Of a stretch of 19,618 nucleotides of DNA, positions 3,372 through 18,611 are shown one piece after another; within the stretch, counting starts at the first letter, position 1; each line of letters starts with the position of its first letter. Position numbers and translations under genes: made by a program. Source of the stretch: Gammaproteobacteria bacterium (GTDB lineage: Bacteria > Pseudomonadota > Gammaproteobacteria > Pseudomonadales > Halomonadaceae); assembly GCA_023485185.1 (NCBI GenBank), contig JAMCZP010000156.1:1-19618 (forward strand), written 5' to 3'. The notes under the pieces were generated by a model. The model searched no databases. It was not told the origin of the DNA and worked only from the letters and a program-made list of their open reading frames with translations.

Positions 3372-3394
3372 TCATATGTACACTATAAGATCTT

Positions 3395-3428
3395 TTGTAA
3401 TGCGGGCGTCGCTAGTCAGACATTACAA
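3395..3428 (+). promoter_or_regulatory. Inverted repeat TTGTAATG-N18-CATTACAA, candidate operator or leader hairpin
   Basis: Two perfect 8-bp arms (3395-3402 and 3421-3428) are separated by 18 bp, giving a 26-bp centre-to-centre spacing of the half-sites. The element sits between the candidate promoter and the ribosome binding site of the dehydrogenase (AGGAG around 3437-3441). It could be an operator of the SorC regulator or an RNA hairpin in the 5' leader. No T-run follows, so it is not a simple terminator. Confidence 0.4.
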
Positions 3429-3447
3429 GATACATTAGGAGTGAGTA

Positions 3448-4554: not shown

Positions 4555-4601
4555 ATAACGTAAGTTTCTTATTTATAAATACAATGATAACCGGAGTGAT
4601 T

Positions 4602-5246: not shown

Positions 5247-5255
5247 GGGGCGGCT

Positions 5256-6803
5256 ATGAGTATCGATAGATCAACGGTGGAAGTGGCTCCGCCCGAGGTG
5301 ATTCTTTCTGCACACAATATCGAAAAACGTTTCGGTGCTGTGCAAGCCCTCAAAGAGGTGAACTTCGATATTTATCGAGGACAAGTGACAACGCTGTTTG
5401 GCGAAAATGGAGCGGGTAAATCCACGCTGATGAAAATTTTGTCTGGCGTCATTGCTCAGACGGCGGGTGAGATTGTACTGGAAGGCGAGAGTGTTAGCTT
5501 TTCGTCGCCGTCGGATGCTGAAGCGCTGGGGATTACCATTATTCATCAGGAGTTGAGCTTGGCCCCTAATCTGAATGTGCGTGACAACATTTTTATGGGC
5601 CGTGAGCTGACTAAAGGAAGAGGCAGCGTCGACTATAAAGAAGAGGCACGTCAGGCTGAATTGTTAATGGAGGAGCTGGATGAACCGATCCACCCTCTTA
5701 CCCTGGTCGAAGATCTACGGGTTGGGCAGCAACAAATCGTTGAAATCGCGAGAGCGCTGTCCAAGAACTCTCGCATTTTGATTATGGATGAACCGACTTC
5801 CGCATTGAGTGCCACGGAAGTCGAGACGTTATTTAAAGTCGTCCAGGATCTAAAAAACAAGGGTGTCTCGATTGTTTATATTTCTCACCATTTGGAAGAG
5901 GCGCTACAGATTACCGATCATGCCGTTGTTCTCCGCGATGGTGCTATGACAGCTTATGCTCCGCGTTGTGATATCGACCTGCAGTGGATTGTTAGGAATA
6001 TGGTGGGAGAGAGTTTCGATCTTGGTTCACCGCCCACAGGGTATGAGCAAGGCGCTACCGCGCTCTCCATCCAGAACCTGTACGTCAGCGACGATAAAGT
6101 GGCAGATCGTTATGTTGTTGAGGACTTTTCGCTTGATGTGCACGCAGGCGAGATTGTCTGCATTTATGGGTTAATGGGTGCAGGGAGAACTGAGTTATTG
6201 GAGTGTGTGGCCGGACGAACCCGGCAATCCAAGGGCGATGTTTTGCTTAACTCAAATGATGTCTCGCATTACAACATTGCGCAGCGAATCGAGAGAGGGT
6301 TGGTGTTAGTGCCTGAGGATCGTCAGCGTGATGGATTAGTGCCCACCCTGTCCGTCGGTAGAAATCTGTCGCTAGCCAGTATCCATGCGTTTACTCGCAA
6401 GGGGCTTACTTCATCCCGCTTGGAGGCAGAAATGATTAAATCCGCTATCGATAAGGTACACATCAAAACAGACGGTGGAGAGGCTGCCATTGGTTCATTG
6501 TCTGGCGGCAACCAGCAGAAAGTGGTCATCGGGAAAATGTTGGCGACTCATCCAGACGTCATCATGCTTGATGAACCAAGCCGTGGCATTGATGTGGGTG
6601 CCAAGGCCGAAGTATTCAAGTTATTGAGCCAAGGGGCCCGGCGAGGGTTGGCGGTCGTCTTTACAACGTCTGAAGTAAGTGAGTGCTTGAGTATCCCACA
6701 CAGAGTGCTGGTGATGAGCAAAGGGCGGATCTCTGCTGAGTTCAAACCGGGGGTAACGAAAGATGAAATTATGGCGGCCTCCGGCGAATCAGTTGCTGCG
6801 TGA
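5256..6803 (+). CDS. Ribose-type sugar ABC transporter, duplicated ATP-binding subunit (RbsA-like)
   Basis: A 515-residue tandem ATPase of the CUT2 class. The N-terminal half has Walker A GENGAGKST, the signature-like VGQQQIVEIARAL and Walker B ILIMDEPTSAL. The C-terminal half has a degenerate Walker A (GLMGAGRTELLE), the signature LSGGNQQKVVIGK and Walker B IMLDEPSRGIDVG. A degenerate second P-loop is normal for RbsA/MglA/XylG-type subunits. It energises import at the inner-membrane cytoplasmic face together with the next two genes. The start ATG has GAGGGG at 5245-5250, five bases upstream. The ligand cannot be read from an ATPase; the tetritol assignment comes from the neighbouring enzymes. 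Confidence 0.95.
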   Translation: MSIDRSTVEVAPPEVILSAHNIEKRFGAVQALKEVNFDIYRGQVTTLFGENGAGKSTLMKILSGVIAQTAGEIVLEGESVSFSSPSDAEALGITIIHQELSLAPNLNVRDNIFMGRELTKGRGSVDYKEEARQAELLMEELDEPIHPLTLVEDLRVGQQQIVEIARALSKNSRILIMDEPTSALSATEVETLFKVVQDLKNKGVSIVYISHHLEEALQITDHAVVLRDGAMTAYAPRCDIDLQWIVRNMVGESFDLGSPPTGYEQGATALSIQNLYVSDDKVADRYVVEDFSLDVHAGEIVCIYGLMGAGRTELLECVAGRTRQSKGDVLLNSNDVSHYNIAQRIERGLVLVPEDRQRDGLVPTLSVGRNLSLASIHAFTRKGLTSSRLEAEMIKSAIDKVHIKTDGGEAAIGSLSGGNQQKVVIGKMLATHPDVIMLDEPSRGIDVGAKAEVFKLLSQGARRGLAVVFTTSEVSECLSIPHRVLVMSKGRISAEFKPGVTKDEIMAASGESVAA

Positions 6804-6828
6804 TTATTCAATCGGATAGGTAATGACT

Positions 6829-7944
6829 ATGTCTTATCACAACATGTCTCATGACAATAATAATGCGTTACAGGTTGAAAAAGGCAGTATCGATATCGTC
6901 AAGATTTTGCTGGAAGGTCGGGCTTTTTTCGCATTAATCGTGATCATTATTGTCTTTTCCATGCTCTCGCCTGTTTATTTTTCAACAGGTAATTTTTTAA
7001 CCATGTCTTCGCATGTGGCCGTTTTTGGCTTGTTAGGCATCGGTATGCTGTTTGTCATTCTGACCGGTGGTATCGATCTGTCGGTTGGCTCTACGCTAGC
7101 ACTTTGCGGGGTGTTCGCAGGTATGTTGCTAGAAGGGGTAGAGATTGAGGCGCTTGATTTGGCCTTCTTCCCTTCAGTATGGGTGGTCGTGGTACTTACC
7201 TGCTTACTGGGCGGGCTAGTGGGGGCTATCAATGGTGTGTTAGTTGCCTATTTTAAAGTACCTGCATTTGTGGCCACCCTAGGTATGTTGTATGTCGCGC
7301 GCGGAGCTGCCCTGTTACTAACGGATGGCTTAACGTTTAATCGTTTAAGCGGTGACCCGGCGTTAGGTAATACAGGCTTTGAATGGCTTGGATTTAATAA
7401 GCTATTAGGCATTCCGGTAGGCGTTTTGATTCTGTTTAGTGTCGCCATTGTGTGCATGTTGGCCCTGAGTCGTACTCCTTTTGGAAGATGGGTCTACTCA
7501 ACAGGAGGTAATGCGCGTGCTGCAGAGCTTTCTGGGGTGCCCGTCAATCGCGTTAAGCTCTCTGTCTATATTATTTCGGGGGTGTGCGCCGCGATGGCGG
7601 GAATAGTGCTTGCCTCTCAGTTGACATCTGCAGGCCCCACGGCAGGCACTACCTATGAGCTGACAGCGATTGCTGCAGTCGTGATTGGTGGTGCTTCACT
7701 AATGGGAGGGCGTGGCACGGTTCGCAATACATTATTGGGTGCTTTTGTGATTGGTTTTTTAGCCGATGGGCTTGTCATTATCGGTGTGTCTGCTTACTGG
7801 CAGATGGTATTCACAGGCAGCGTGATTGTCTTTGCTGTGATGCTAAATAATGTCCAATACAGCACTAAAAATAAGTCCCCGAAAAAAGCTGAGATAAAAA
7901 CAACAGCAAGTAAGCACGAAGGTTCTAGGGCAAGCGCTACTTAA
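6829..7944 (+). CDS. Ribose-type sugar ABC transporter permease (RbsC-like)
   Basis: A 371-residue polytopic membrane protein of the BPD_transp_2 permease family. It has many hydrophobic segments, the hallmark LTGGIDLSVGS, and the cytoplasmic-loop region GGASLMGGRGTVRNTLLG. The C-terminus is a hydrophilic Lys/Ser-rich tail. There are two nearby starts: an ATG at 6823 lies only two bases after GGATAGG (6814-6820), while the ATG at 6829 is eight bases away, so 6829 is preferred. It forms the membrane channel for the upstream ATPase and the downstream binding protein. A 5-bp stem (GCTAC/GTAGC, 7936-7950) overlaps the stop codon and may stabilise the intercistronic mRNA, but it is too weak to call a terminator. 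Confidence 0.95.
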   Translation: MSYHNMSHDNNNALQVEKGSIDIVKILLEGRAFFALIVIIIVFSMLSPVYFSTGNFLTMSSHVAVFGLLGIGMLFVILTGGIDLSVGSTLALCGVFAGMLLEGVEIEALDLAFFPSVWVVVVLTCLLGGLVGAINGVLVAYFKVPAFVATLGMLYVARGAALLLTDGLTFNRLSGDPALGNTGFEWLGFNKLLGIPVGVLILFSVAIVCMLALSRTPFGRWVYSTGGNARAAELSGVPVNRVKLSVYIISGVCAAMAGIVLASQLTSAGPTAGTTYELTAIAAVVIGGASLMGGRGTVRNTLLGAFVIGFLADGLVIIGVSAYWQMVFTGSVIVFAVMLNNVQYSTKNKSPKKAEIKTTASKHEGSRASAT

Positions 7945-8022
7945 TGTAGCACTGCTTAGAAGTATGGCCTGTTAGGGGCTACTTATTAAGAGACTAATAA
8001 TCATAACGATGAGGTAATGAAC

Positions 8023-8979
8023 ATGTTTCCAAAAAGCAAAAAGATGCTTTTTACAGCACTCGCCAGTGTCTCAATGCTCTTTAGTGGCTCCCTGGTTGCT
8101 CAGGACAAGGGGCTGATTTCAATTATTGTTAATGATATGTCAAACCCCTATTGGCAAACGGAAGGAACAATAGCCGGGCGGACAGCAGAAGAGTTGGGCT
8201 ATACAGCAAATGTAAGCTCCCATGTGGGTGATACCAACACTGAAAGCAACCAGGTCGATACCGCGATTACCAATGGGGCTAAAGCGATCATTTTGGATCC
8301 TGCTAATGCGGACGGTTCCATTGGCGCTGTGCGAAGAGCTGTTGAGGCGGGAATTCCAGTCTTTATTATTAATGCTGAGATTAACCAGCAGGGGTTAGCC
8401 AAGGCGCAGCTGGTTTCCAATAATGCCCAGGGAGCCGCGTTAGGCGCACAAGAGTGGGCAATGCAATTGGATGGCGAGGGATCCTATATAGAGTTAAAAG
8501 GCCCACCTTCTGATAATAATGCGGCGACACGATCCAATGGCTATGAAACGGTGCTTAGCCAGTACCCCGACCTTACTCTGGCGGCGTCTGATATCGCGAA
8601 TTGGGATCGGACGGAAGGGCGTAATAAAATGCAGAGCATGCTGCGTTCTCATCCTGATATCAGAGGCGTTATTAGCGGTAACGACGAAATGGCGTTAGGC
8701 GCTATTGTTGCCTTGAAACAGGAGGGGCGGCTAGACGATGTATTGGTCGGTGGGTTTGACGGTTCACCCGATGCGGTTGATGCGGTTCGCTCGGGTGAGT
8801 TGGCCTATACCGTTCTACAGCCAGTGGCCGTATTTGCAGAAGATGCAGTAAAAATTGCTGATCATTACATCAATACGGGAGAAACGGGGTTGGATAGTGA
8901 AAAGCAGCTTTATGACTGTATCCTAATTACGTCGGATAATGTTGATAACTATACCTCTCCTTTTGTTTTAGAAGAGTAA
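8023..8979 (+). CDS. Periplasmic sugar-binding protein of ribose-type ABC transporter (RbsB-like)
   Basis: A 318-residue type I periplasmic binding protein (Peripla_BP_4). It starts with a cleavable signal peptide: basic FPKSKK, a hydrophobic core, and probable cleavage after VA before QDKG. Family landmarks are the first strand IIVNDMSNPYW, AIILDPANADG, VISGNDEMALGA (where RbsB has NDEMALGA) and GGFDGSPDAVDAV. As with the permease, two ATGs lie close together: GAGG (8011-8014) is two bases from the ATG at 8017 and eight from that at 8023, so the latter is preferred. It should capture the substrate in the periplasm for the two upstream subunits. Ligand specificity is unproven; a tetritol is inferred from the dehydrogenase and kinase. 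The gene is followed by a strong terminator. Confidence 0.94.
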   Translation: MFPKSKKMLFTALASVSMLFSGSLVAQDKGLISIIVNDMSNPYWQTEGTIAGRTAEELGYTANVSSHVGDTNTESNQVDTAITNGAKAIILDPANADGSIGAVRRAVEAGIPVFIINAEINQQGLAKAQLVSNNAQGAALGAQEWAMQLDGEGSYIELKGPPSDNNAATRSNGYETVLSQYPDLTLAASDIANWDRTEGRNKMQSMLRSHPDIRGVISGNDEMALGAIVALKQEGRLDDVLVGGFDGSPDAVDAVRSGELAYTVLQPVAVFAEDAVKIADHYINTGETGLDSEKQLYDCILITSDNVDNYTSPFVLEE

Positions 8980-9030
8980 GTGTTAGAAAAATAGGTTTTA
9001 GACGAATAAGGATTGGGAAATCTTGCTTAG

Positions 9031-9063
9031 AAGCCAGCCAGCGTTAACGCTGGCTGGCTTTTT
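9031..9063 (+). terminator. Strong rho-independent terminator after the ABC operon
   Basis: A perfect 30-bp palindrome (9031-9060), with GCCAGCCAGCG arms around a central TTAA, is followed by TTT, giving a run of five T. It lies 52 bp after the binding-protein stop and 18 bp before the kinase start. The near-symmetric A/T flanks mean it may also stop transcription from the other strand. Confidence 0.88.
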
Positions 9064-9081
9064 GAATTAGAGGGCGTTTCA

Positions 9082-9987
9082 GTGATATTTAATTTTGGTT
9101 CCATCAATATTGATCATACTTATCACGTTCCCTATTTTGTTCGCCCTGGCGAAACGCTGGAAAGCAATCAATACAGTGTTGGCTTGGGTGGGAAAGGGGT
9201 CAATCAATCGCTGGCGATAGCGCGTGCCAAAGGGGCTGTGAGTCACTGGGGGCGAGTGTCATCGATAGATGCTTGGGTGGCCCATGAGCTTGAGTCTGCG
9301 GGTGTTGGTGTGAAAGATATCGAATTGACCCCAGAGCCAAGTGGGCATGCGATTATTCAAATTGATTCATGTGGTGAAAACGCTATTCTTTTGTTCTCTG
9401 GTGCCAATCATGGTTTTACGCAGGAGAAAATGACGGCTCTTATCGCGCAAACTGCTCCTGGCGACACAATGCTTATTCAGAACGAATGTAACGGGCTTGA
9501 TCAGCTTATTCCATTAGCTGTGAGCCACGGCTGCAAGGTGATATTTAACCCTGCACCAATGACCTCGAAGGTATCATCACTCCCGCTAGCTCAATGTGAA
9601 CTGCTTTTTTTTAACCGTACAGAGGCCGCTGCTTTATTAGAGATGCCAGTAGCGTCGAGCGCTGCAGATTTGCTAAGGCGTTGTAAAGAAACGCTTGGCG
9701 ATGTCGAGGTGGTTCTTACTCTAGGTAGCGAGGGGGCTTGGTATCAGCGCAGCAGTGAGACTCTTTTTCAAGCGGCTTTAAAGGTAAATGCCATCGATAC
9801 AACGGCCGCAGGTGATACCTTTGTGGGTTACTTCCTTGCCGCTAGGCAAGCTGGCCTAGCGCCCTCACAGTGCTTGCAGCGAGCAACAGCGGCGGCTGCC
9901 CTGGCGGTACAAAAGCTCGGTGCTGCCAGTAGCATTCCGATGGTGGAAGAAGTTGATAGGTTGATGTGTCAACAAGACGGGCTATAG
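9082..9987 (+). CDS. PfkB-family carbohydrate kinase (ribokinase-like)
   Basis: A 301-residue cytoplasmic sugar kinase with a GTG start and AGAGGG at 9069-9074, seven bases upstream. It shows the N-terminal FGSINIDHTYHVPYFVRPGET, the GLGGKGVNQ sugar-binding motif (35-42), NPAPMTS, NRTEAAALL, VLTLGSEGAW and the catalytic/anion-hole segment DTTAAGDTF with D239 and D245. The usual GAGD reads AAGD, a tolerated variant. Length fits ribokinase. The gene is separated from the ABC operon by a strong terminator only 18 bp upstream, so it depends on read-through or on a promoter I cannot place. It might phosphorylate a pentose or tetrose handled by the same importer. The substrate is unknown; ribose is only the family default. 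Confidence 0.88.
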   Translation: MIFNFGSINIDHTYHVPYFVRPGETLESNQYSVGLGGKGVNQSLAIARAKGAVSHWGRVSSIDAWVAHELESAGVGVKDIELTPEPSGHAIIQIDSCGENAILLFSGANHGFTQEKMTALIAQTAPGDTMLIQNECNGLDQLIPLAVSHGCKVIFNPAPMTSKVSSLPLAQCELLFFNRTEAAALLEMPVASSAADLLRRCKETLGDVEVVLTLGSEGAWYQRSSETLFQAALKVNAIDTTAAGDTFVGYFLAARQAGLAPSQCLQRATAAAALAVQKLGAASSIPMVEEVDRLMCQQDGL

Positions 9988-10516
9988 ATATGGAAATGTC
10001 CTTGGACATAATTGATATATCCGCGGTACGTATGTTCAGCCATCCGCTAAATTGATCTAGGTTCCTTCGATCCGCCCAAGCTACTACTCGCCCCCGTGGG
10101 CGGGCCCTCCTTAAGACTTTCATGGTATCGGCTCATCTTGTTGAGCCAATGATCATGTTTTCATTATCCATCATTAATCCTGTTCGGTAATCCTCCTAAA
10201 ATAGCGCTGCTCCTACCTTTAGCTGGCATTCTCATATTCCGCAAGCTTCTTAAATTGGTTGACCATTTTTGCGTAAGGTCTTTCTTTGGCGGATTTTTTC
10301 TACGTAAATCTAGGTGGGTTCATGTTTTAATTTAAATACCAGCCTACTAGATGCCAAAAGAATATTTTCTTAAGTGTTTGTTTTATTTGTGATAATCAGG
10401 CTGTTTTTTATGAAGCCTAGTGATTTTAAGGCGTGTTAACTAATAATGATTAATATATTATTGATTTTTTAGACTAAAGTTCCGTTTCAATATATTGGAA
10501 TTATCTTTATCTTCAA
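9988..10516. other. 529-bp AT-rich intergenic region with several inverted repeats, no gene
   Basis: This gap separates the polyol region from the transketolase/TRAP operon. I find no convincing gene; a minus-strand frame (9842-10123) is partly a shadow of the kinase and resembles no family I know. Visible elements are a 14-bp inverted repeat ATGTCC-TT-GGACAT (9996-10009), a GC-rich hairpin CGCCC-N4-GGGCG (10089-10102), a hairpin GGCTCA-N6-TGAGCC (10130-10147) without a T-run, an operator-like site (10253-10268), and a very AT-rich tract (10310-10510) likely to hold the operon promoter. No rho-independent terminator was recognised after the kinase. Confidence 0.6.
10253..10268 (-). promoter_or_regulatory. 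Upstream GntR/FadR-type operator-like site
   Basis: AATTGGTTGACCATTT; read on the minus strand its core is TGGTCAACCA, identical to the site at 10515-10530 apart from one flanking base (15 of 16 match). TGGT-N2/3-ACCA with A/T flanks is typical of FCD-class GntR operators. The centre lies 262 bp from that of the second site. Confidence 0.55.
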
Positions 10517-10530
10517 ATGGTCAACCATTT
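10515..10530 (+). promoter_or_regulatory. Proximal GntR/FadR-type operator-like site before the transketolase genes
   Basis: AAATGGTCAACCATTT has perfect 7-bp arms around CA and abuts the ribosome binding site GGAGG (10531-10535) of the first transketolase gene. A repressor bound here would block initiation or elongation. The adjacent operon encodes an FCD-type GntR protein (17880-18611), the natural candidate to bind it. Confidence 0.6.
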
Positions 10531-10543
10531 GGAGGTGGCTAGA

Positions 10544-11404
10544 ATGAGTCAAACAGCTATCGCATCGAGCGCTGGTGTTATCGAGGAGCTTCGGCAGCGG
10601 GCTTACAAAATTCGCCGCCACGCTCTGCGAATGGGTGAAGTGCAAGGGCAGGGGTACGTTGGCCAGGCGCTCGGGATTGCCGATGTTTTGGCGGTGTCTT
10701 ACTTCCATGCCCTGAAGCTGGATCCCAAGAACCCTGATTGGGAAGGACGAGATCGTTTCTTGCTCTCTATCGGGCATTACGCCATCGCCTTATACGCCGC
10801 TTTGATCGAGGCTGGTGTTATTAGCGAGGAAGAGATTGAGGATTACGGCAGCGACGACAGCATTCTGCCCATGTCAGGTATGGCCGATTACACGCCGGGC
10901 ATGGAAATCACCGGTGGTTCGCTAGGGCATGGTTTGGGTATCGGTGTGGGGATGGCGCTGGGCCTTAAGCGCAAGAAGAGTGCCTCACGTATTTTTAATC
11001 TGCTTTCAGATGGCGAGCTGAATGAAGGTTCGACCTGGGAAGCTGTCGCCTCTGCAGCCCATTGGAAGCTGGATAACCTGATTGCCATTGTCGATGTCAA
11101 CGATCAGCAGGCTGACGACAAGTCTTCCACCGTACTCAACTACGAGCCGATCGCTGATAAGTGGATTGCGTTTGGGTGGGAAACCTACCGTGTTGATGGC
11201 AATGATCTTGAAGCGTTAGTCAAAGCTTTCGACAGTGCTCTAGCCAGTGACTCTCACAAACCCCGGGTGATTGTCTGCGACACCCTAATGGGCCGCGGCG
11301 TGTCCTTCCTCGAAGAACGTGACAAGAACCACTTTATTCGCGTTGATGAGAATGAGTGGAGTGTGGCGCTCAAGCAGCTCGATGACGTTTACGGTGTCCA
11401 GTAA
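10544..11404 (+). CDS. Transketolase-like subunit A (N-terminal, thiamine-diphosphate/Mg-binding half)
   Basis: A 286-residue N-terminal half of a split transketolase. The Mg/ThDP motif starts at SDGELNEG (155-162). D156 and N186 (AIVDVND) are 30 residues apart, the spacing of the Mg ligands in classical transketolases. Other landmarks are SIGHYAIALYA, YTPGMEITGGSLGHGLG and CDTLMGRGVSFLE. An in-frame ATG at 10517 lies inside the operator-like repeat, but GGAGG (10531-10535) points to the ATG at 10544. The gene is 12 bp from subunit B, so the two should form a heteromeric cytoplasmic enzyme transferring a two-carbon ketol unit. Named split relatives include apulose-4-phosphate transketolase (AptAB) and sulfofructose transketolase (SqwGH). 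The substrate here is unknown; genomic context argues for a specialised catabolic donor rather than the housekeeping pentose-phosphate role. Confidence 0.9.
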   Translation: MSQTAIASSAGVIEELRQRAYKIRRHALRMGEVQGQGYVGQALGIADVLAVSYFHALKLDPKNPDWEGRDRFLLSIGHYAIALYAALIEAGVISEEEIEDYGSDDSILPMSGMADYTPGMEITGGSLGHGLGIGVGMALGLKRKKSASRIFNLLSDGELNEGSTWEAVASAAHWKLDNLIAIVDVNDQQADDKSSTVLNYEPIADKWIAFGWETYRVDGNDLEALVKAFDSALASDSHKPRVIVCDTLMGRGVSFLEERDKNHFIRVDENEWSVALKQLDDVYGVQ

Positions 11405-11416
11405 GGAGGATATGAA

Positions 11417-12412
11417 ATGAGCGCCAAGAAGAAGCTAAAGACCTCGGCAATGATTGCGTCCATCGCAGGTGATGACCAGCCAACGACCTCCGCGCCCTTT
11501 GGGCATGCATTAGTAGAGGCTGCTGCGAAAAATCCCAAGATTGTCGGTATGACGGCAGATCTGGGCAAATATACCGATCTGCATATCTTCGCTCAGGCTT
11601 ACCCTGATCGCTATTACCAGATGGGCATGGCTGAGCAGCTACTCATTATGGCAGGTGCGGGTATGGCTCGCGAAGGCTTTATCCCTTTCGTGACGACCTA
11701 TAGCGTTTTCGCCTCACGCCGTGCTTACGACTTTATTTGTTTAGCCATTGCCGAAGAAAAGCTGAACGTCAAAATTGTCTGCGCACTTCCCGGGCTGACC
11801 ACGGGCTATGGCCCGAGCCATCAGGCTACCGAAGATATCGCTATCTTCCGCGGTATGCCGAACCTAACCATCATTGACCCCTGTGATGCGGTCGATATTG
11901 AGCAGTCAGTTCAAGCGATGGTCGATTTTGATGGCCCCGTCTACTTACGCCTACTGCGTGGCAAGGTGCCCCGTGTTTTAGATCGCTTTGAAGGTTACCA
12001 GTTCGAGATCGGCAAGGCTAAAAGGCTGCTAGATGGAGAAGATGCCCTAATCATCTCTTCTGGGCTGATGACGATGCGTGCGATTGAGGCTGCCGATGAG
12101 CTGAAAGAGAAAGGCACTAACGTGGCGGTTTTACACTGCGCCACAATCAAGCCGCTAGATACCGATACCATTCTGGCGGAGGTTCGTCGCTATCCTGAAC
12201 GTCCTGTCTTCGTGGCCGAAAACCACTCAATCATTGGTGGTCTGGGCGAAAGCATCGCATCGCTGCTGATGAAAGAGGGTGTATCCGTCAAATTTAATCA
12301 GATCGGCCTTCCCGATGAATTTCTGGATGCCGGTGCTTTACCCACTCTGCATGATCGTTACGGTATTTCCACCAAGGAGGTGATCAAATCGCTAAAGCAG
12401 CACGTTGCCTGA
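11417..12412 (+). CDS. Transketolase-like subunit B (pyrimidine-binding and C-terminal half)
   Basis: A 331-residue partner subunit. The pyrimidine domain holds YYQMGMAEQ with the conserved cofactor-activating Glu (E73), PFVTTYSVFASRRAYD, and GLTTGYGPSHQATEDIA with H135. The C-terminal transketolase domain follows (about 195-325), including VAVLHCATIKPLD and VFVAENHSIIGGLGE. The first 25 residues are a Lys/Ser/Thr-rich extension. Its ribosome binding site AAGGAGGA (11403-11410) is near-ideal at six bases; a closer ATG at 11412 reads into a stop after one codon. The stretch before the Pyr-loop His (GLTTGYGPSHQ) is the form seen in split transketolase and DXS-like proteins rather than the longer loop of classical transketolase. 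It needs subunit A for a complete ThDP site. Confidence 0.9.
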   Translation: MSAKKKLKTSAMIASIAGDDQPTTSAPFGHALVEAAAKNPKIVGMTADLGKYTDLHIFAQAYPDRYYQMGMAEQLLIMAGAGMAREGFIPFVTTYSVFASRRAYDFICLAIAEEKLNVKIVCALPGLTTGYGPSHQATEDIAIFRGMPNLTIIDPCDAVDIEQSVQAMVDFDGPVYLRLLRGKVPRVLDRFEGYQFEIGKAKRLLDGEDALIISSGLMTMRAIEAADELKEKGTNVAVLHCATIKPLDTDTILAEVRRYPERPVFVAENHSIIGGLGESIASLLMKEGVSVKFNQIGLPDEFLDAGALPTLHDRYGISTKEVIKSLKQHVA

Positions 12413-12500
12413 AGATACTCACTAAATCAAAAAACTAAGACTCCAGTTACGTTTGATAACCGCTATTTCTAACAACAAATATTTAATAGAGAGAAACGTC

Positions 12501-13481
12501 ATGAAAAAAATACTCCTTGCTTCTGCAATTGCCAGCGCCTTTTTCATTAGTGGTAATGCCGCCGCTCAGCAAACCCTACAACTCGCCCACAATGCGGCGG
12601 AAGGTAACCCCAAGTGGGATGCTTCAGAACTCTTCGCAGAACTTATAGAAGAAGGGACTAACGGGGAGTTAAGAGTAGATGTTGGCGGTAACGCACAGTA
12701 TGGCGACGATATGGAAGCCATTACTCAGATGAGAATGGGCACCTTGGCTTTTAGCACCAATAGCCAGGGCGCGACCTCCAGCGTTGTGCCGCAGTTCTCG
12801 GTACTGGGGTTGCCGTTTCTGTTCAATTCTCTGCCCAGTGCTTGGGAGGTCATGGACGGCGAAGTCGGTGATGAACTGAAAAATCTTTCGGAAGAAAAGG
12901 GACTTGTGCTGCTGGCGCTGTGGGATAACGGCATCCGCCACGTTAGCAACAATGTTCATCCTGTCGAAACCCCTGAAGATCTAAACGGCCTCAAAATCCG
13001 TACTCCACCGGATGAAATGACGGTCAACATCTTTGATGCATTAGGCGCCAACCCAACGCCAATGAATTTCTCTGAGCTCTATATTGCTCTCGAGCAAGGA
13101 GTCGTTGACGGTCAGGAAAATCCGTTAATGAATATTTACTCATCCAAGCTTCACGAGGTGCAAGACTATATCTCGTTGACTAGCCACAAGTATGAGTCAA
13201 CCCCGCTGCTGATGAGCAAAATGGTCTGGGATTCACTTTCACCAGAGCATCAGGATGTGGTTCAGCAAGCGGCCATTGAGGCTGGAGAATTTAATCGTCA
13301 GGCCTCTTTAGAAGCCGACGCTGCGCTGAGAAGTGCGATGGAAGAGGCTGGTGTCGTGTTCAATGAAGTGGATCCTGAGTCTTTTATCGGTGCCACCGCA
13401 TCCGTTTACGATCAGTGGGCAGCAGAGTACCCAGAGCTGGTTGAGATGGTCGTCAATGCGGCTCAGCGCGAGTCGCAATAA
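12501..13481 (+). CDS. TRAP transporter periplasmic solute-binding protein (DctP family)
   Basis: A 326-residue exported binding protein. The start is the ATG at 12501, with AGAGAG upstream; an in-frame TTG at 12453 would add 16 residues before the signal peptide and is unlikely. The signal peptide is MKK plus a hydrophobic core, with probable cleavage after AAA before QQTLQ. DctP landmarks are GLPFLF, GLKIRTPP with the conserved ligand arginine R167, NFSELYIALEQGVVDGQENP (including N207) and a KYESTPLL strand. In characterised DctP proteins this arginine forms a salt bridge with the ligand carboxylate, so an organic or sugar acid is expected. It hands its ligand to the DctQ/DctM pair encoded directly downstream. 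The exact ligand is not readable. Confidence 0.94.
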   Translation: MKKILLASAIASAFFISGNAAAQQTLQLAHNAAEGNPKWDASELFAELIEEGTNGELRVDVGGNAQYGDDMEAITQMRMGTLAFSTNSQGATSSVVPQFSVLGLPFLFNSLPSAWEVMDGEVGDELKNLSEEKGLVLLALWDNGIRHVSNNVHPVETPEDLNGLKIRTPPDEMTVNIFDALGANPTPMNFSELYIALEQGVVDGQENPLMNIYSSKLHEVQDYISLTSHKYESTPLLMSKMVWDSLSPEHQDVVQQAAIEAGEFNRQASLEADAALRSAMEEAGVVFNEVDPESFIGATASVYDQWAAEYPELVEMVVNAAQRESQ

Positions 13482-13496
13482 CGGAAGGGGCTTATC

Positions 13497-14060
13497 ATGA
13501 CGCTCTCAAAAGAGGGCCGCGGCAGTGAAGTGGGCAGGCCCGCTTCACTGTTAGTGAGCTCAAAAAGTTTGATTTATCACACCTTTAAATGGGTATCTAT
13601 CGTCGCTGTCGTGGCGATCTTCTTGTCGCTATTACTGGGTGTAGCGGTTCGCTATGTGTTCTCTACCAATTTGGGCTGGGTAGCGGAAGTGCCCAACTTG
13701 GTTTTTCCCTGGTTAACGATGTGCGCCATCGTCGCCGCTGCCGCAAGAAACGAGCACATTGGGGTCGAGTTGGTCGTCGAAAAGTTGCCAAGGCTACCCA
13801 AGAAGCTAGTGGTATTGGCCGTCAACCTAATCGCTACTATCGCTTTTGGCGTGATGGCCGTTCACGGACTAGATGTTGTCGAAATTGCAGGCACTCAACG
13901 ACTGCCAATCACCCGTATCGGTATGTCCTGGGCTTACTGGTCGGTTGTAGTCGGCTTTATAGGGCTAGCAGTGGTTTCACTCATTAACATCGCGATGGTA
14001 CTGACCGGTGGAGATTGCTTCTCCAAGCCACAAGTCTCGCATGGGGAGGATAGGATATGA
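13497..14060 (+). CDS. TRAP transporter small membrane subunit (DctQ family)
   Basis: A 187-residue inner-membrane protein with four predicted helices (about 30-52, 62-82, 102-124, 147-170). It has the DctQ features NLGWVAEVPNLVFPWLT in helix two and ARNEHIGVELVVEKLP in the loop after it. The N-terminal 25 residues are hydrophilic. The ATG follows AAGGGG (13484-13489) at a slightly long seven-base spacing. The stop overlaps the DctM start by four bases (ATGA), so the two are translationally coupled. DctQ pairs with DctM to form the sodium-driven importer served by the upstream binding protein. Confidence 0.93.
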   Translation: MTLSKEGRGSEVGRPASLLVSSKSLIYHTFKWVSIVAVVAIFLSLLLGVAVRYVFSTNLGWVAEVPNLVFPWLTMCAIVAAAARNEHIGVELVVEKLPRLPKKLVVLAVNLIATIAFGVMAVHGLDVVEIAGTQRLPITRIGMSWAYWSVVVGFIGLAVVSLINIAMVLTGGDCFSKPQVSHGEDRI

Positions 14061-15316
14061 CGGCCCAGATGCTTATTGGCTTTACCCTGTTCTTATTAAT
14101 GGCGATGCCGGTGGGTTACTCGCTAGTGATAAGTGGTTGGGCGGCGCTATCCGTTTTTGGCCCAATGCCGTCGAGTATGGCGGTTATGAAGATATTTCAA
14201 CCAACGCAAAGCTTCCCGCTGCTGGCGATACCCTTCTTTATTCTATCCGGTGGCTTGATGATGTCAGGCAAGTTGGGGCAGAAGTTGGTGAGTTTAGCCT
14301 CTATGCTGGTGGGTAAATATCACGGTGGTCTTGGTCAGGTGACGGTCGTCGGTTCCACTGTGTTTGGTGGTGTTTCCGGATCCGCCGTCGCAGAGGCTTC
14401 GGCGCTCGGCTCGATACTCATACCCTGGCAAAAAAGGGAAGGGTACCCTGGCGCTTTTGGGGCGGCAGTGACCTCGGCGTCATCGGTGATTGCTGGCTTG
14501 ATGCCGCCTTCTATCCCGCTCATTTTGTTTGCTACCGTCTCGAATACCTCCATTGCGTCACTGTTTGTTGCGGCCGTGATTCCGGCATTGATGCTCGCAG
14601 CTGGCATGATGATGGTTTGCTATTTCGTTGGTAAACGACGTGGGTTCCCACGCTTAACGCTAAAGCACACCCGTGCCGAAGTAAGAAACACCTTGTTTAC
14701 TGCTCTGCCAGCACTGCTGATGCCGGTATTTATTGTTGTGTTGCTGCGCGCTGGTATTGCTACACCCACTGAAGTCAGTGTTATCGCTGTTGCCTATGCC
14801 CTGGTGGTTAGCAGTGTTATTTACCGTGACCTGACGGCTGAACGAGTCATGAGCGCATTGGTAAATACTGTGATTACCACAGGCATTGTGATGTTGATTA
14901 TTGCGGCGGCCAACATCATTGCCTATATCCTAACCTCGGGTGGTGTCCCGCAGGCCGTCGCCCAATGGGCCGTGGAGTATCTAAAACACCCTATCTTAAT
15001 CATTTTGGCGATCAACGTACTGATGCTCGTTATCGGTATGTTCCTTGATCTGCCAGCGGCCATCCTACTGCTGGGACCAACACTGGTCTCTATTGCCAAC
15101 GCGATCGGGCTGGATCTTGTGCAGCTCGGGATCATTATGTGTGTGAATCTCAGCATTGGGCTCTTTTCTCCTCCCATTGGCACGACGCTGTTTGTTTCCT
15201 CAGCCATTGCGCGCGAGCGAATTGGTGCTGTGGTTAAAGAGTTGGGGCCCTTCTATCTAGTGGCCATTATCGTGCTACTGCTGGTGTCTTTCGTGCCAGC
15301 TCTGATTATTTACTGA
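14057..15316 (+). CDS. TRAP transporter large permease subunit (DctM family)
   Basis: A 419-residue polytopic transporter with about twelve hydrophobic segments. It has the family-defining stretch VFGGVSGSAVAEASALGSI (about 98-116), the repeat-like GLMPPSIPLILFA, FLDLPAAILLLGPTLVSIA and LSIGLFSPPIGTTLF in the second half. It is the ion-coupled translocation subunit. The start codon overlaps the DctQ stop (ATGA) and GAGG (14044-14047) lies about nine bases upstream. Length and composition are normal for the family. Together with DctP and DctQ it makes a complete TRAP system dedicated to this operon. Confidence 0.95.
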   Translation: MTAQMLIGFTLFLLMAMPVGYSLVISGWAALSVFGPMPSSMAVMKIFQPTQSFPLLAIPFFILSGGLMMSGKLGQKLVSLASMLVGKYHGGLGQVTVVGSTVFGGVSGSAVAEASALGSILIPWQKREGYPGAFGAAVTSASSVIAGLMPPSIPLILFATVSNTSIASLFVAAVIPALMLAAGMMMVCYFVGKRRGFPRLTLKHTRAEVRNTLFTALPALLMPVFIVVLLRAGIATPTEVSVIAVAYALVVSSVIYRDLTAERVMSALVNTVITTGIVMLIIAAANIIAYILTSGGVPQAVAQWAVEYLKHPILIILAINVLMLVIGMFLDLPAAILLLGPTLVSIANAIGLDLVQLGIIMCVNLSIGLFSPPIGTTLFVSSAIARERIGAVVKELGPFYLVAIIVLLLVSFVPALIIY

Positions 15317-15323
15317 GGTGGTT

Positions 15324-16205
15324 ATGCAAACTGTTGCATTTGCAGGGCTGGGCGCCATGGGGTGGCCTATGGCAACCCAACTGAAAGAAGGTGGTTTTCA
15401 GGTGTTGGGCATGGATGCGGTTGAACAAACGGAAACGGCTTTCAACGGACAGGTGACGTTATCCGAGCAAAAGCATCTCGGGCTGGCCCAGTGCGAAGTG
15501 CTTTTTATCATGGTGGTGAATGCCAGTCAGGTGCGTTCCGTCTTGTTCGATAGCAAAAGCATCGAGCAGCTCGGCCATGGTGCCTGCATTGTGCAGATGT
15601 CCACCATTGCCCCCGACGATGCGGCAGCCATCGCAAAAGATGTCGCGGCGGTTAGGCCCGATCTGCACTTCATCGATGCCCCTGTCTCAGGTGGTGTAGT
15701 GGGTGCCCAGTTGGGTGAACTCACTATTATGGCGGCGGGCACTCAAGAGGCTTTATCGAAATGCCGTCAAGCGTTTGACGTGTTGAGCAAAGTTGTCTTT
15801 GAAGCTGGGGAGCAGCCGGGGCAGGGCGCGGCGATGAAGGTGGTCAATCAGTTGCTGTGCGGCGTACACATTGCGGCGGCTGCAGAAGCGCTGGCGCTGG
15901 CCGAGAAGAGCGGTATTGATGCCTCAACCATGCTGTCGCTGTTACAGGGCTCGTCAGCTTCCAGTTGGATGCTGAAGGATCGTGGCCCTCGGATGATCGC
16001 TGAGCCCAATGATATTACCAGTGCGATCGATATCTTCTGCAAAGACATGGGCATTGTCTGCGACTCAGCCAAGACCTCTAAGGCATTTACGCCACTGGCA
16101 GAAACCGCGCGTCAGCTATTTGTTTCCAGCGCTGAGCGAGGAGAGGGCAAGTTAGATGATAGCCAGCTGATTCGTACTTACCGTCTGCTTAATGGAACGG
16201 CCTAA
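15324..16205 (+). CDS. Beta-hydroxyacid dehydrogenase, resembling L-threonate dehydrogenase (LtnD)
   Basis: A 293-residue NAD-dependent dehydrogenase of the 6-phosphogluconate/3-hydroxyisobutyrate family. It has the Rossmann motif GLGAMG (8-13) with D31 at the end of strand two favouring NAD, the substrate loop DAPVSGGVVGA (118-128), the catalytic lysine K172 in MKVVNQ with N175, and IFCKDMGIV (K240) in the helical domain. The stretch MKVVNQLLCGVHIAAAAEAL and the following SSASSWMLKDR resemble the L-threonate 2-dehydrogenase subgroup as I remember it. A GTG at 15318 is possible, but GAGG (15315-15318) is spaced for the ATG at 15324. Expected chemistry is oxidation of a 2- or 3-hydroxy acid imported by the TRAP system. 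Glycerate- or sulfolactaldehyde-type reductases are alternatives within the family. Confidence 0.85.
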   Translation: MQTVAFAGLGAMGWPMATQLKEGGFQVLGMDAVEQTETAFNGQVTLSEQKHLGLAQCEVLFIMVVNASQVRSVLFDSKSIEQLGHGACIVQMSTIAPDDAAAIAKDVAAVRPDLHFIDAPVSGGVVGAQLGELTIMAAGTQEALSKCRQAFDVLSKVVFEAGEQPGQGAAMKVVNQLLCGVHIAAAAEALALAEKSGIDASTMLSLLQGSSASSWMLKDRGPRMIAEPNDITSAIDIFCKDMGIVCDSAKTSKAFTPLAETARQLFVSSAERGEGKLDDSQLIRTYRLLNGTA

Positions 16206-16214
16206 GGGGACACA

Positions 16215-17066
16215 ATGCCCAGCTTTATATCTGTCAGTACCGCGGCTTACGACGGCTATAATTTCGATGTAATTCTGCCATCGCTAGCGCGGTGTGGCAT
16301 AAGGAATGTGGAGTTTGCCTTTATTGATGGCTATGTAGAGGCCTTCACCGACAGCGATTTTACTGATGCTTTCGCAGCTGAGCTTAAAAGTGAAATGCAG
16401 CGCCATGGCCAGCAGTGCCGGTATTTTTCTGGTCATATTGATTTGGGCATTGAGAACGCAGCTGCCAGGCTTGAAGCACGCTGTCGTTTTGCTGCGTCTT
16501 TAGGGGCCTCCTATTTAATTACTAACGCCGCCACGCGTGCGCGCGCAGAGGTCTTCTTTGCACAGGCCGATACCCTGGCTGCGACTGCTCACCACTATGG
16601 TGTGCGCATTCTGCTGGAGAATCCCGGCAACGGCGTTTCCAACTTACTCGACCATGCCAGTGACGCGCCGGGCTTGCTTAAACAGCTGGACGCTCAGGCC
16701 TTCGGTATTAATTACGATATCGGCAATCTGTTAGCTCACTGCCCTGCTCGGGAACCGCTTGAAGATGCACGTGCGGCAATGAATATTGCCGACCATTTTC
16801 ATCTTAAACCCTGTGTGCGCCGCGAGGATGGTATCGATTTTGTTCCATTGGGAGCAGGGGATGTGAATGACACTGCGCTAGCTGCGGAGCTCCTTCGCAA
16901 GAATAAGCCGTTTTCACTTGAGCTTCCATTCCGCCTTCATCGTGATGCCAATGCTCAACCTTGGCGCGATGAGCAACCACTGCCACTCGATGTCATCGAG
17001 TGGCGCATTTCCTGCTCTCTTATGGAGCTGGAGCGTCTTGACAAACAATTTACTACAAATCAATAA
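16215..17066 (+). CDS. TIM-barrel sugar isomerase/epimerase (AP-endonuclease-2-like fold)
   Basis: A 283-residue cytoplasmic protein with the xylose-isomerase-like TIM-barrel pattern. Putative divalent-metal ligands are E135 (LLENPGNG), D168 (NYDIGN), H196 (DHFHLK) and E236 (SLELPF), the Glu-Asp-His-Glu set of hydroxypyruvate isomerases, inosose dehydratases and ketose 3-epimerases. AAGGGG precedes the ATG at six bases, nine bases after the dehydrogenase stop. In tetronate pathways a member of this fold (OtnI) moves the keto group made by an LtnD-type dehydrogenase, so the gene order suggests the same here. This protein does not obviously carry the OtnI or hydroxypyruvate-isomerase N-terminal pattern, however, so only the fold-level function is safe. 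Confidence 0.78.
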   Translation: MPSFISVSTAAYDGYNFDVILPSLARCGIRNVEFAFIDGYVEAFTDSDFTDAFAAELKSEMQRHGQQCRYFSGHIDLGIENAAARLEARCRFAASLGASYLITNAATRARAEVFFAQADTLAATAHHYGVRILLENPGNGVSNLLDHASDAPGLLKQLDAQAFGINYDIGNLLAHCPAREPLEDARAAMNIADHFHLKPCVRREDGIDFVPLGAGDVNDTALAAELLRKNKPFSLELPFRLHRDANAQPWRDEQPLPLDVIEWRISCSLMELERLDKQFTTNQ

Positions 17067-17078
17067 AAGGAGAACGTT

Positions 17079-17831
17079 ATGCTACTTAAAGACAAGGTTT
17101 GTATCGTCACAGGAGCCGCAGGTGAGAAAGGCATTGGCTTGAGAACAGCGAAGCTCTTCTATGAGCACGGAGCTTCAATCGTCATTTCCGATATCAATCA
17201 GCAGGCTTGCGATCAGGTGCGCAGCGAGTTTGACCCTGAGCGCTCGCTAGTAGTGGTTGGAAACGTAGCGAACCGTGATGATTGCTTCAATTTAGCGAAG
17301 GCAGTCACAGATAAATTTGGCCACATTGATGTGCTTATCAATAACGCAGGTATTACCCAGCCGGTGAAATTCGAAGAGATTTTACCTGAAGATTATGATC
17401 GTATTCTGGATGTGAACCTGCGGGGCATGCTCTATATGTCGCAGGCTGTTGTACCTCATATGAAAGCGGCTAAGTCGGGCTCAATTATCAACACTTCTTC
17501 GGTGTCTGCGCAGCGGGGCGGCGGTATCTTCGGCGGCCCGCACTATAGTGCCGCCAAGGCGGGCATGTTAGGGCTGAGCAAGGCCATGGCACGTGAGCTT
17601 GGTGCTTTTGGTATTCGCATCAACTCCGTTACGCCGGGATTAATCGCTACTGATATTACCGCTGGCAAGCTGGACGACCAGATGAAAGCCAAAATTTTAG
17701 AGGACATCCCGCTGGCACGAATGGGCACTCCTGAAGATGTCGCCAAGTCCTTCCTGTTCTTGGCAAGCGACCTTTCCAGTTACATTACAGGGGCCACCCT
17801 GGATGTTAACGGCGGTATGCACATTCACTGA
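17079..17831 (+). CDS. Short-chain dehydrogenase/reductase (SDR), classical type
   Basis: A 250-residue classical SDR. The cofactor loop reads TGAAGEKGIG, two residues longer than the commonest TGxxxGIG form. D38 (VISDIN) predicts NAD preference. Then come NNAG (88-91), N113, S140/S141, Y156 and K160 of YSAAK, and the PGLIATDI loop; it ends GATLDVNGGMHIH. AAGGAGA (17067-17073) gives a strong ribosome binding site. It is the last enzyme of the operon, 12 bp after the isomerase. D-threitol dehydrogenase and many polyol and sugar-acid dehydrogenases are of this type. It could oxidise a second stereoisomer or reduce a pathway intermediate; the substrate is not determinable. Confidence 0.88.
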   Translation: MLLKDKVCIVTGAAGEKGIGLRTAKLFYEHGASIVISDINQQACDQVRSEFDPERSLVVVGNVANRDDCFNLAKAVTDKFGHIDVLINNAGITQPVKFEEILPEDYDRILDVNLRGMLYMSQAVVPHMKAAKSGSIINTSSVSAQRGGGIFGGPHYSAAKAGMLGLSKAMARELGAFGIRINSVTPGLIATDITAGKLDDQMKAKILEDIPLARMGTPEDVAKSFLFLASDLSSYITGATLDVNGGMHIH

Positions 17832-17879
17832 TTATGCTAAGCTGCCTCTGTACTAACCATGGGGGTATAGGGGTGGCGC

Positions 17880-18611
17880 TTGGATGATGTTATGAGTCAG
17901 ATCGATCCGAACCTTTTGGATAGACTTAAGGAGTTTGTGTCGGTCTCCGAACTATCTAAAGATGGCCGATTAAAGCTTCCGGCAGAAAGAGCACTGTGTG
18001 AGCATTTTGATATGCATCGCTCGTCAGTGAGAAATGTGCTTTCCCTATTGCAAAGCCTTGGGTTCATTGAACGCAAGCAGGGCAGCGGCACCTTTCTTAA
18101 AATGCCGGAGCCTATTTTTATCCAGCTCTATTTTGAGCTGGCGCTTAAGCTCAACTACATCTCAGTCGATCATCTTGAAACGGCGAGAGAGATGTTTGAA
18201 AAAGAGATTGTACAGGCGGCGGCAGTGAACCATCAGTCTCATGAACTGAAAAAGCTTGAGCTGCTGTGTGAAAAGATCGTTACGTCATCAGATGTTCTTG
18301 AGGGCATTCAAGCAGACTATGAGTTTCATGAACTGTTGGCCATTATGGCCAAAAACCCTGCCGTATTGATTATTTTCCAAGGGTTATCATCGGTACTGAA
18401 AAAGGTGCTTCACCAGCGCAGGATTTTGGCGCGACAGTCTAGAGAAGCCCAAAAGAAAACTAACGAGACGCATATTGCGATTGTCGCTGCTGTCAAAACC
18501 CGTGACCGAGAACTGGCACGCCAAGCAATGCATGACCACTTCGAGACATGGAATCAGCAGACGATGCGTAGCTTCCCGAAAGTAGAGGGTTCGGGCATTT
18601 TTGCCGAATAA
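17880..18611 (+). CDS. GntR-family transcriptional regulator, FCD/FadR subfamily
   Basis: A 243-residue regulator with an N-terminal winged helix (about 12-75: LPAERALCEHFDMHRSSVRN, then GFIERKQGSGTF) and an all-helical FCD effector domain (about 95-220). The FCD metal site is intact: D146, H150, H198 and H220, the Asp-His-His-His set that in this family holds a metal that binds carboxylate effectors. The start could be TTG at 17880 (AGGGG at 17869-17873) or ATG at 17892; the difference is four residues before the HTH. It lies 48 bp after the SDR with no terminator between, so it is probably part of the operon. Its most plausible targets are the twin TGGTCAACCA sites upstream of the transketolase genes, giving local control relieved by a pathway acid. 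Confidence 0.9.
   Translation: MDDVMSQIDPNLLDRLKEFVSVSELSKDGRLKLPAERALCEHFDMHRSSVRNVLSLLQSLGFIERKQGSGTFLKMPEPIFIQLYFELALKLNYISVDHLETAREMFEKEIVQAAAVNHQSHELKKLELLCEKIVTSSDVLEGIQADYEFHELLAIMAKNPAVLIIFQGLSSVLKKVLHQRRILARQSREAQKKTNETHIAIVAAVKTRDRELARQAMHDHFETWNQQTMRSFPKVEGSGIFAE

Follow-up and report, generated by a model that had tools for sequence, protein, structure and literature searches.

A conserved Halomonadaceae operon with a split transketolase, a TRAP transporter and a TIM barrel, and its possible role in sugar acid catabolism

The L-threonate and erythronate pathways run through LtnD or equivalents, OtnI, OtnK, and OtnC, and in the oxidative D-apionate pathway OiaC yields L-erythrulose, which is then taken up by a kinase. 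Cleavage by a transketolase alone already has two precedents, the sulfo-TK and apiose pathways. In the former, as described in PMC9594981 and PMC11659671, a split transketolase cleaves a non-phosphorylated acidic ketose and transfers the C2 unit onto glyceraldehyde 3-phosphate; for the latter, PMC13001218 names the Escherichia coli SE15 AptAB loci. We present here an operon at positions 10544-18611 of contig JAMCZP010000156.1 (assembly GCA_023485185.1, Gammaproteobacteria bacterium, Halomonadaceae), whose 19,618 nucleotides form the window, the whole stretch analyzed. It encodes a split transketolase (TktA and TktB, together TktAB), a tripartite ATP-independent periplasmic (TRAP) transporter, an LtnD-like dehydrogenase, a triose-phosphate isomerase (TIM) barrel protein, a short-chain dehydrogenase/reductase (SDR), and a GntR regulator.

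Computation established the gene set, its conservation, the conserved palindromes ahead of it, the altered active site of TktAB, and the operon's independence of DhaK and, in two genomes, of DUF1537; the substrate, the position of its oxidation, the acceptor, the TIM reaction, and GntR binding to the palindromes are inferred. We give a probability of about 40% to a reading in which the SDR or the LtnD-like dehydrogenase makes a 3-oxo sugar acid, TktAB cleaves it by C2 transfer, and TIM, with DhaK where present, provides a second tail. Equally tentatively, TktAB would be an undescribed split thiamine-enzyme family for non-phosphorylated 3-oxo sugar acids, forming with a dehydrogenase and a transporter a complete kinase-, aldolase-, and dehydratase-free route across Pseudomonadota that is interchangeable with a TIM-decarboxylase and DhaK tail. 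The TRAP transporter would import a polyhydroxy acid, and the SDR would oxidize it to HOCH2-CO-C(OH)(R)-COO-, with R being H (3-oxotetronate) or CH2OH (3-oxo-isoapionate); the LtnD-like dehydrogenase would probably oxidize another stereoisomer. TktAB would load the HOCH2-CO unit on thiamine diphosphate and transfer it to an acceptor aldehyde; glyceraldehyde 3-phosphate, the likeliest one, would yield xylulose 5-phosphate. The remainder, glyoxylate (R = H) or hydroxypyruvate (R = CH2OH), would be reduced by ordinary metabolism or by an added D-2-hydroxyacid dehydrogenase. TIM would also draw on this 3-oxo acid, decarboxylating it to dihydroxyacetone or erythrulose, a ketose that would be phosphorylated where DhaK or DhaKL is present. 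These two acids were chosen because TktAB needs HOCH2-CO-C(OH) and the TIM tail needs a beta-keto acid. One 3-oxo acid, alternative dehydrogenases, and either tail make up the simplest reading.

Gene content and spread of the operon

A first-pass annotation of this DNA had listed the same kinds of genes and called them tightly spaced. Open reading frame and domain searches of the window find all of them present and intact, though they number nine rather than eight (Table 1), and the successive intergenic gaps of 12, 88, 15, -4, 7, 9, 12, and 60 bases bear out the spacing. GGAGG at 10531-10535 lies ahead of the tktA start at 10544; a longer tktA frame from 10517, running through the proximal palindrome, is probably not used. 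Consensus promoters and terminators showed no excess over shuffles. The same annotation saw no kinase, aldolase, or dehydratase, and profile searches indeed match none of these families among the nine operon proteins, but DhaKL-type and PfkB kinases lie just upstream. DctP, DctQ, and DctM of a DctP-type TRAP system are all present with the carboxylate-binding Arg, R167, which was pointed out earlier and is located as the Arg of a KIRT motif (numbered from the ATG at 12501). The GntR protein carries the FCD ligand pattern D142/H146/H194/H216, which we take to be the metal ligands of the FCD domain. As first suggested, this looks like a carboxylate-importing catabolic unit, with a split transketolase taking part in its committed C-C bond chemistry. 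It also stays unmatched to a described pathway: a literature search, with most subscription journals outside it, returned no title or abstract start describing an SDR-split transketolase-TRAP pathway, and papers found on split transketolases dealt mostly with human TKTL1.

Table 1. Genes and candidate operator sites in the window
Feature	Position	Strand	Evidence
DhaKL-type kinase (dihydroxyacetone kinase family), neighbor	275..2005	+	NF011049 724 bits, cutoff 492
SorC-type regulator, Zn-alcohol dehydrogenase, DUF2291, ribose-type ABC transporter, PfkB kinase; separate polyol/ketose cluster	2014..9987	+	domain searches
PfkB kinase, last of upstream cluster	9082-9987	+	domain searches
Distal palindrome copy TGGTTGACCA, candidate GntR operator	10256..10265	.	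match to TGGTYRACCA
Proximal palindrome copy TGGTCAACCA, extended CAAATGGTCAACCATTTG, 26 bases before tktA ATG	10518..10527	.	match to TGGTYRACCA
tktA, split transketolase, thiamine diphosphate (ThDP) pyrophosphate-binding subunit	10544..11404	+	PF00456 134 bits; His26 to Tyr, His100 replaced
tktB, split transketolase, pyrimidine-binding and C-terminal domains	11417..12412	+	PF02779/PF02780; altered phosphate site
dctP, TRAP solute-binding protein, conserved Arg167	12501..13481	+	TIGR00787 293 bits, cutoff 175
dctQ, TRAP small permease	13497..14060	+	PF04290 83 bits
dctM, TRAP large permease	14057..15316	+	TIGR00786 398 bits, cutoff 268
LtnD-like beta-hydroxyacid dehydrogenase, proposed alternative sugar-acid dehydrogenase	15324..16205	+	NF043037 (curated L-threonate dehydrogenase) 273.6 bits, below cutoff 350
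TIM barrel, proposed 3-oxo sugar acid decarboxylase/isomerase, OiaC-like	16215..17066	+	PF01261
SDR dehydrogenase, proposed maker of 3-oxo acid	17079..17831	+	PF13561 229 bits; YSAAK at 156, NNAG at 88
gntR, GntR/FCD regulator	17892..18611	+	PF07729 and PF00392

Conservation was examined in 30 Halomonadaceae and Zobellella loci found via TIM, so that its presence there is by construction. Six were excluded for having no TktB in the locus, either because TktB was on another contig (L011 and L019) or because it was not found in the genome at E 1e-80 (L021, L023, L024, and L025). In all 24 loci with TktB, tktA, tktB, TRAP, TIM, SDR, and gntR genes occur together, and ltnD is present in 20; this gene set is far beyond chance. 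The window comes from a genome of Halomonas/Vreelandella type, since both transketolase subunits, TktA and TktB, share 99% identity with their counterparts in Halomonas campaniensis SK03 (L001). Gene order varies, with gntR first in Zobellella and tktAB-gntR reversed in L022. Outside these groups, SDR, TktA, and TktB stand together in 30 of 31 loci, three of 34 (L108-L110) having been left out as below 60% identity. Within 6.5 kb of TktB in the resulting 55 loci (TktB identity ≥60%) are TktA in 55, the SDR in 54, TRAP in 49, and a panel-type major facilitator superfamily (MFS) transporter in 4; L101 and L107 have neither TRAP nor panel-type MFS in that range. Many rhizobial plasmid loci are close kin, and 54/55 does not stand for 55 independent events. 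No DUF1537-type, FGGY, or aldolase gene was seen next to TktAB in the annotated PLSDB gene tables, which are incomplete; the search panel held no DUF1537 or aldolase probe, and at its threshold no FGGY kinase lay within 6.5 kb of TktAB in the 55 loci.

The TktB family is widespread on plasmids, including pNGR234a, although the only annotation its products carry is transketolase. Plasmid matches, which form two groups, comprise 681 records at E <1e-5, of which 189, all those with E <1e-80, are 60 to 80% identical; at least one Arthrobacter plasmid carries a relative. The family is sparse in class samples. In one class, a search at E 1e-90 found it in 11 of 385 genomes, of which 8 reach ≥62% identity (9 copies); the other class gave 2 positives among 369 genomes, the center itself being one. 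Minimal clusters consist of LysR, SDR, MFS, TktA, and TktB (L060 and L081) or of SDR, MFS, TktA, and TktB (L088). For the MFS proteins of L060 and L081, the top-scoring subfamily is that of D-galactonate transporters (345 and 336 bits, respectively, short of the cutoff of 395), which suggests an acid as the substrate. Rhizobial clusters additionally hold a sugar ABC transporter and an amidohydrolase, that of L059 being a distant L-fuconolactonase relative (108.7 bits, cutoff 400). The L059 cluster (SDR-TktA-TktB-TRAP-ABC-amidohydrolase, L059:7322-17336) is that of the Sinorhizobium fredii symbiosis plasmid pNGR234a, where it lies close to nodS/nodU. Mandelate-racemase-type genes are near TktAB in L061, L084, and L105, and full-length transketolases are found in clusters L061, L082, L103, and L105. 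In both Zobellella loci (L026:1552-3030 and L027:1566-3044), an aldehyde dehydrogenase gene directly precedes gntR-tktAB, an arrangement that would suit a pathway whose aldehyde product has to be oxidized; the L026 enzyme is betaine-aldehyde dehydrogenase-like, below cutoff.

The single exception to SDR presence, Pantoea piersonii (L087), has an MFS transporter in its cluster and sugar kinases of another cluster nearby. In the SDR's place stands an LtnD-like dehydrogenase that shares 38% identity with that of the window, so the TktAB substrate looks as if it could be made by either dehydrogenase. Members of the LtnD-like clade from Skermanella, Azospirillum, Azoarcus, Photobacterium, and Rhizobium tropici are 56 to 78% identical. 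In the first four they co-occur with TktAB (in Photobacterium with TIM as well), while the R. tropici gene sits with TIM-DhaK-DhaL, with no TktAB in the fetched stretch. Azospirillaceae and Azoarcus clusters additionally hold LtnD-like and D-2-hydroxyacid dehydrogenases. The latter occur in clusters L061, L063, L082, L099, and L100, and a PDB search with one gave a single relative, an entry of unstated function.

These dehydrogenases bear on a different scheme, which we consider unlikely, in which the substrate would be a linear pentonate. The SDR would oxidize C4, TktAB would remove C4-C5 to leave tartronate semialdehyde, and the LtnD-like enzyme would reduce this to glycerate, directly or after conversion to hydroxypyruvate by TIM. 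The LtnD-like protein does match tartronate semialdehyde reductase (TIGR01505, 182 bits, cutoff 341), and glyoxylate reductase is among the lower matches of the 2-hydroxyacid dehydrogenases found in some clusters. Glycerate kinase (PF02595 or MOFRL) is present in 29 of 30 genomes, but this weighs little, since either family is found in 9 of 14 control genomes. The top match of the LtnD-like protein, however, is L-threonate dehydrogenase (273.6 bits), and because this protein replaces the SDR in L087 it is placed before TktAB, not after. TIM matches no NCBIfam model at E 0.001, and its alphaproteobacterial relatives go with ApnO-like genes.

Active site of the split transketolase

TktAB has the PF00456, PF02779, and PF02780 domains and the catalytic Glu of the thiamine diphosphate transketolase superfamily. 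By E. coli TktA numbering it retains His66, His261, Glu411, His473, and Arg520, but His26 is replaced by Tyr and there is no His at 100 (Ser by alignment, Met in pairwise alignment). In the window and throughout the aligned family, the canonical His26/His66/His100/His261 set therefore reads Tyr, His, Ser (or Met), His. There is no conserved counterpart of Arg358 or Ser385, His461 is Ala or a gap, and Asp469 is Tyr. The characterized Carboxydothermus split transketolase, included in these alignments, retains the usual residues. Among the 120 best-listed TktB homologues, drawn from at least 8000 scored, Tyr469 is found in 118, Ala461 in 114, GMAEQ in 119, and the RRAYD motif and Arg520 in 120. 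Asp469 presumably contacts the C4 hydroxyl of ordinary donors, so its loss would fit a carboxylate on donor C3.

PMC11659671 gives the head-group motif as RSFHR in phosphate transketolases and as RAFDR in the sulfofructose enzyme. TktAB keeps only the final Arg of the RSFHR residues; with the active-site His set also failing, we rejected TktAB as a canonical pentose-phosphate transketolase. Loss of most phosphate-site residues weakens glyceraldehyde 3-phosphate as the acceptor, and a phosphorylated acceptor is possible, though not secured, from the sequence.

For 1-deoxy-D-xylulose 5-phosphate (DXP) synthase (DXS), PMC11019550 gives R420, R478, and Y392 as the glyceraldehyde 3-phosphate pocket. 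Y392 and R478 are matched in TktAB and R420 is not. A DXP-synthase-like TktAB would decarboxylate a 2-oxo acid from the dehydrogenases and join the remainder to an aldehyde, and the oxidation at C2 for which L-threonate dehydrogenase is named would suit it. TktB reaches 198 bits with the DXS model (cutoff 466), and DXS Tyr392, Arg398, His431, and Arg478 have TktAB counterparts. We nevertheless hold this reaction to be quite unlikely, given that TktAB is only 25% identical to E. coli DXS and that Arg420, Asp427, and His49 of DXS are changed.

That TktAB might be an apulose-4-phosphate or sulfofructose transketolase, and the operon a route for apiose or a sulfonate, is barely credible. Both known enzymes are split transketolases, and the ABC and DUF2291 genes upstream of the operon resemble the E. 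coli apiose cluster. TktAB, however, shares 31% identity with AptAB of E. coli SE15, where both His26 and His100 are present, and the TktAB head-group residues are unlike RAFDR. Identity, the lost His26 and His100, and the lack of an FGGY kinase within 6.5 kb at the panel threshold led us to reject an AptAB orthologue. In a tree, AptAB and DXS are long branches, of which only the separation from TktAB, not the exact placement, is usable.

Palindromes, upstream neighbors, and the TIM barrel

TGGTYRACCA has only two matches in the window, both ahead of tktA (Table 1). One or two copies lie within 450 bases 5′ of tktA in 22 of 22 Halomonadaceae-group loci, and none ahead of tktA in 2 Zobellella and 21 other loci; the overall density across the examined loci is 0.049 per kb. 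The palindrome fits the operator consensus of FadR-type GntR proteins, TNGTN(0-3)ACNA, and the window's regulator has the GntR and FCD domains of that type. It would control the operon via the palindromes ahead of tktA. Among relatives' stretches with DhaKL clusters, L112, L113, L114, L117, and L118 have no match, L115 has two, and L116 has two, one of them ahead of tktA; intragenic matches occur in a few relatives' genes, e.g., dctQ of L001, L002, and L008. The palindrome, whose window copies stand only before tktA, sets the tktA-led operon off from the SorC/DhaKL/ABC cluster as a separate unit. The operon is real, conserved, and apparently regulated as a unit.

We read the window's DhaKL as an erythrulose kinase and its cluster as an erythrulose/polyol cluster, because relatives' DhaKL is accompanied by an RpiB-type isomerase and, in most fetched stretches, a transaldolase or transketolase; with the D-erythrulose-4-phosphate isomerase model (cutoff 240), the RpiB-type isomerase of L023 reaches 172.8. 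One upstream gene, which has no NCBIfam match, we presume to be DUF2291. The E. coli SE15 apiose cluster (L097:12042-22989) has DUF2291, ribose-type ABC, and sugar-binding regulator genes like those upstream here, and a ribose-type ABC transporter with DUF2291 may mark C4/C5 branched sugars or polyols. On the other side of the operon, an AbrB-duplication membrane protein gene runs off the window's end (18964-19617; TIGR03082, 103.5 bits, cutoff 94.7), and relatives of it are also 3′ of the operon in L001-L004 and L008.

The operon could be an annex of this erythritol/erythrulose cluster with an ordinary pentose phosphate transketolase, which we judge very unlikely. The two clusters are side by side in the window, and Kushneria-type loci have TRAP-TIM-SDR embedded in an erythritol/erythrulose cluster; but TktAB lacks the canonical substrate residues, and relatives have full-length transketolases near DhaKL. 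DhaK (PF02733) was found in 22 of 30 genomes and not in G005, G006, G007, G009, G010, G011, G029, and G488, all of which carry TktB; a separate search agreed for the first seven. G010 is a metagenome-assembled genome, G011 is fragmented, and G005, G006, G007, G009, and G029 are isolates. Since seven Halomonadaceae/Zobellella relatives hold the operon genes without DhaK, DhaKL is dispensable for the operon; these relatives and the palindrome placement rule out a dependence on it. The first-pass annotation had held that kinase and aldolase genes routinely flanking such clusters would speak against a separate pathway. This is only partly the case: DhaK(L) or PfkB and, in relatives, RpiB-type isomerase, transaldolase, and transketolase genes do often adjoin, but 7 of 25 Halomonadaceae/Zobellella genomes with TIM and TktAB have no DhaK, and the window's palindrome is only before tktA.

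PF07005 (DUF1537 kinase) was found in 27 of 30 genomes and not in G005, G024, and G488; its absence excludes an OtnK-type tetronate route for these genomes only. G005 (Halomonas salicampi BH103) has the operon minus the LtnD-like gene and neither DhaK nor PF07005. G005 and G488 both carry the SDR-TktAB-TRAP module, which in these two genomes is independent of DUF1537. About 7 kb downstream of the operon, L016 encodes an authentic L-threonate dehydrogenase (452.6 bits, cutoff 350) and a DUF1537 protein (G016:C14:20245); a separate pathway thus probably handles L-threonate in that genome, leaving the operon for a different acid. Ahead of these two genes, also downstream of the operon, are a GolD/DthD-family SDR (378 bits against a cutoff of 286) and a ribose-type ABC transporter, so that C4 sugar and sugar-acid genes are concentrated around this operon (L016:12114-20236 and G016:C14:20245).

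The TIM model is a confident TIM barrel, with a predicted local distance difference test score (pLDDT) of 94.8. The 50 matches listed by a fold search are mainly ketose epimerases/isomerases at 12 to 18% identity. An alignment of 26 sequences, reaching relatives of 32 to 39% identity, one named Mesorhizobium, has 41 invariant residues, including E135, D168, H194, H196, K198, E236, R240, and R243. The first-pass annotation treated TIM as a plain isomerase and the transketolase as the only visible C-C bond-cleaving enzyme. Neither view is supported by the neighbors of alphaproteobacterial relatives: 29 TIM loci hold an ApnO-like gene in 26, an OiaX-like RuBisCO-like gene in 17, and an ApnL-like gene in 5. 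Because these relatives adjoin D-apionate catabolic genes, TIM may be a decarboxylase that breaks a C-C bond. The ApnL of L042 is above its NCBIfam cutoff (781 versus 750) and the OiaX-like protein of L029 below (398 versus 700). The ApnO-like gene is PF16896, which we take to be ApnO, with a KARI-like N terminus; PF16896 occurs in 9 of 29 TIM-bearing genomes, none inside the operon by coordinates, and not in the other 20. In L083 and L094, TIM of the same family is followed by DhaK and DhaL, and in L064 it is beside a set of DhaKL, triose-phosphate-isomerase-like, RpiB, transaldolase, and transketolase genes, which suggests that TIM may make a small ketose used by DhaK-type kinases. On the Shinella plasmid (L083:332-2434), an annotated fusion of a sugar-binding transcriptional regulator and DhaK lies beside TIM-DhaK-DhaL and an SDR-TktAB-TRAP operon. 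The earlier reading got the architecture right and its strangeness roughly so, but missed this apionate link, the upstream kinases, the wide distribution of the core, and the altered active site.

Among the 29 Halomonadaceae/Zobellella TIM genomes (G001-G029), DhaK is present in 22 and TktAB in 25 (13 from loci and 12 of 16 by genome search). Both are found in 18, TktAB only in 7, DhaK only in 4 (G021, G023, G024, and G025), and neither in 0. TktAB and DhaK look interchangeable, but about one genome with neither is expected by chance, so the pattern is suggestive only. Two separate tails are also favored by the TktAB genomes from the class samples, where TIM was found at E 1e-15 in 0 of 9, in a search without a positive control.

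Besides this near-chance count, several points weigh against C2 transfer from a 3-oxo sugar acid with TIM as a second tail. The phosphate-holding residues of ordinary transketolases are mostly lost from TktAB. TIM, which matches no NCBIfam model, has no close solved relative either, and its OiaC-like function would rest on gene neighborhood. The search for TIM in the class-sample genomes had no positive control. L-Threonate dehydrogenase, the best-named relative of the LtnD-like protein, oxidizes C2, not C3, and in L087, the locus without an SDR, the MFS transporter falls in a different subfamily (metabolite/H+ symporter). In the seven DhaK-free genomes, a TIM-made ketose has no explained fate unless TktAB takes it too.

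Comparison with known systems

If the 3-oxo sugar acid route holds, carboxylates would join apulose phosphate and sulfosugars as a third substrate class in transketolase-based catabolism, a set of orphan TRAP transporters would gain a role, and the candidate substrates could be listed for testing. The results also warn against annotating TktAB genes as pentose phosphate enzymes.

The operon differs from the L-threonate/erythronate systems in having neither a DUF1537 kinase nor a decarboxylase-type aldolase and in an LtnD-like protein below the NCBIfam cutoff, and resembles them in its LtnD-like dehydrogenase, PF01261 barrel, and TRAP uptake. The oxidative D-apionate pathway (ApnO, OiaC, OiaK/OiaX, and LerK) is set apart by the lack of ApnO in the operon and of PF16896 in most TIM genomes; the likeness is the TIM family, common to clusters with ApnO-like, OiaX-like, and ApnL genes. 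AptAB shares with TktAB a split transketolase as the C-C bond-cleaving step in D-apiose catabolism, whereas its sequence, its retained His residues, and the FGGY kinase beside it differ. SqwGH of the sulfo-TK pathway acts on a sulfonate where a carboxylate is proposed here, and RAFDR is lost or changed in TktAB, a distinction drawn from the published motif rather than from SqwGH sequences or a search for SqvD, SqwI, and SqwF genes; in both, a split transketolase would act on a non-phosphorylated acidic ketose.

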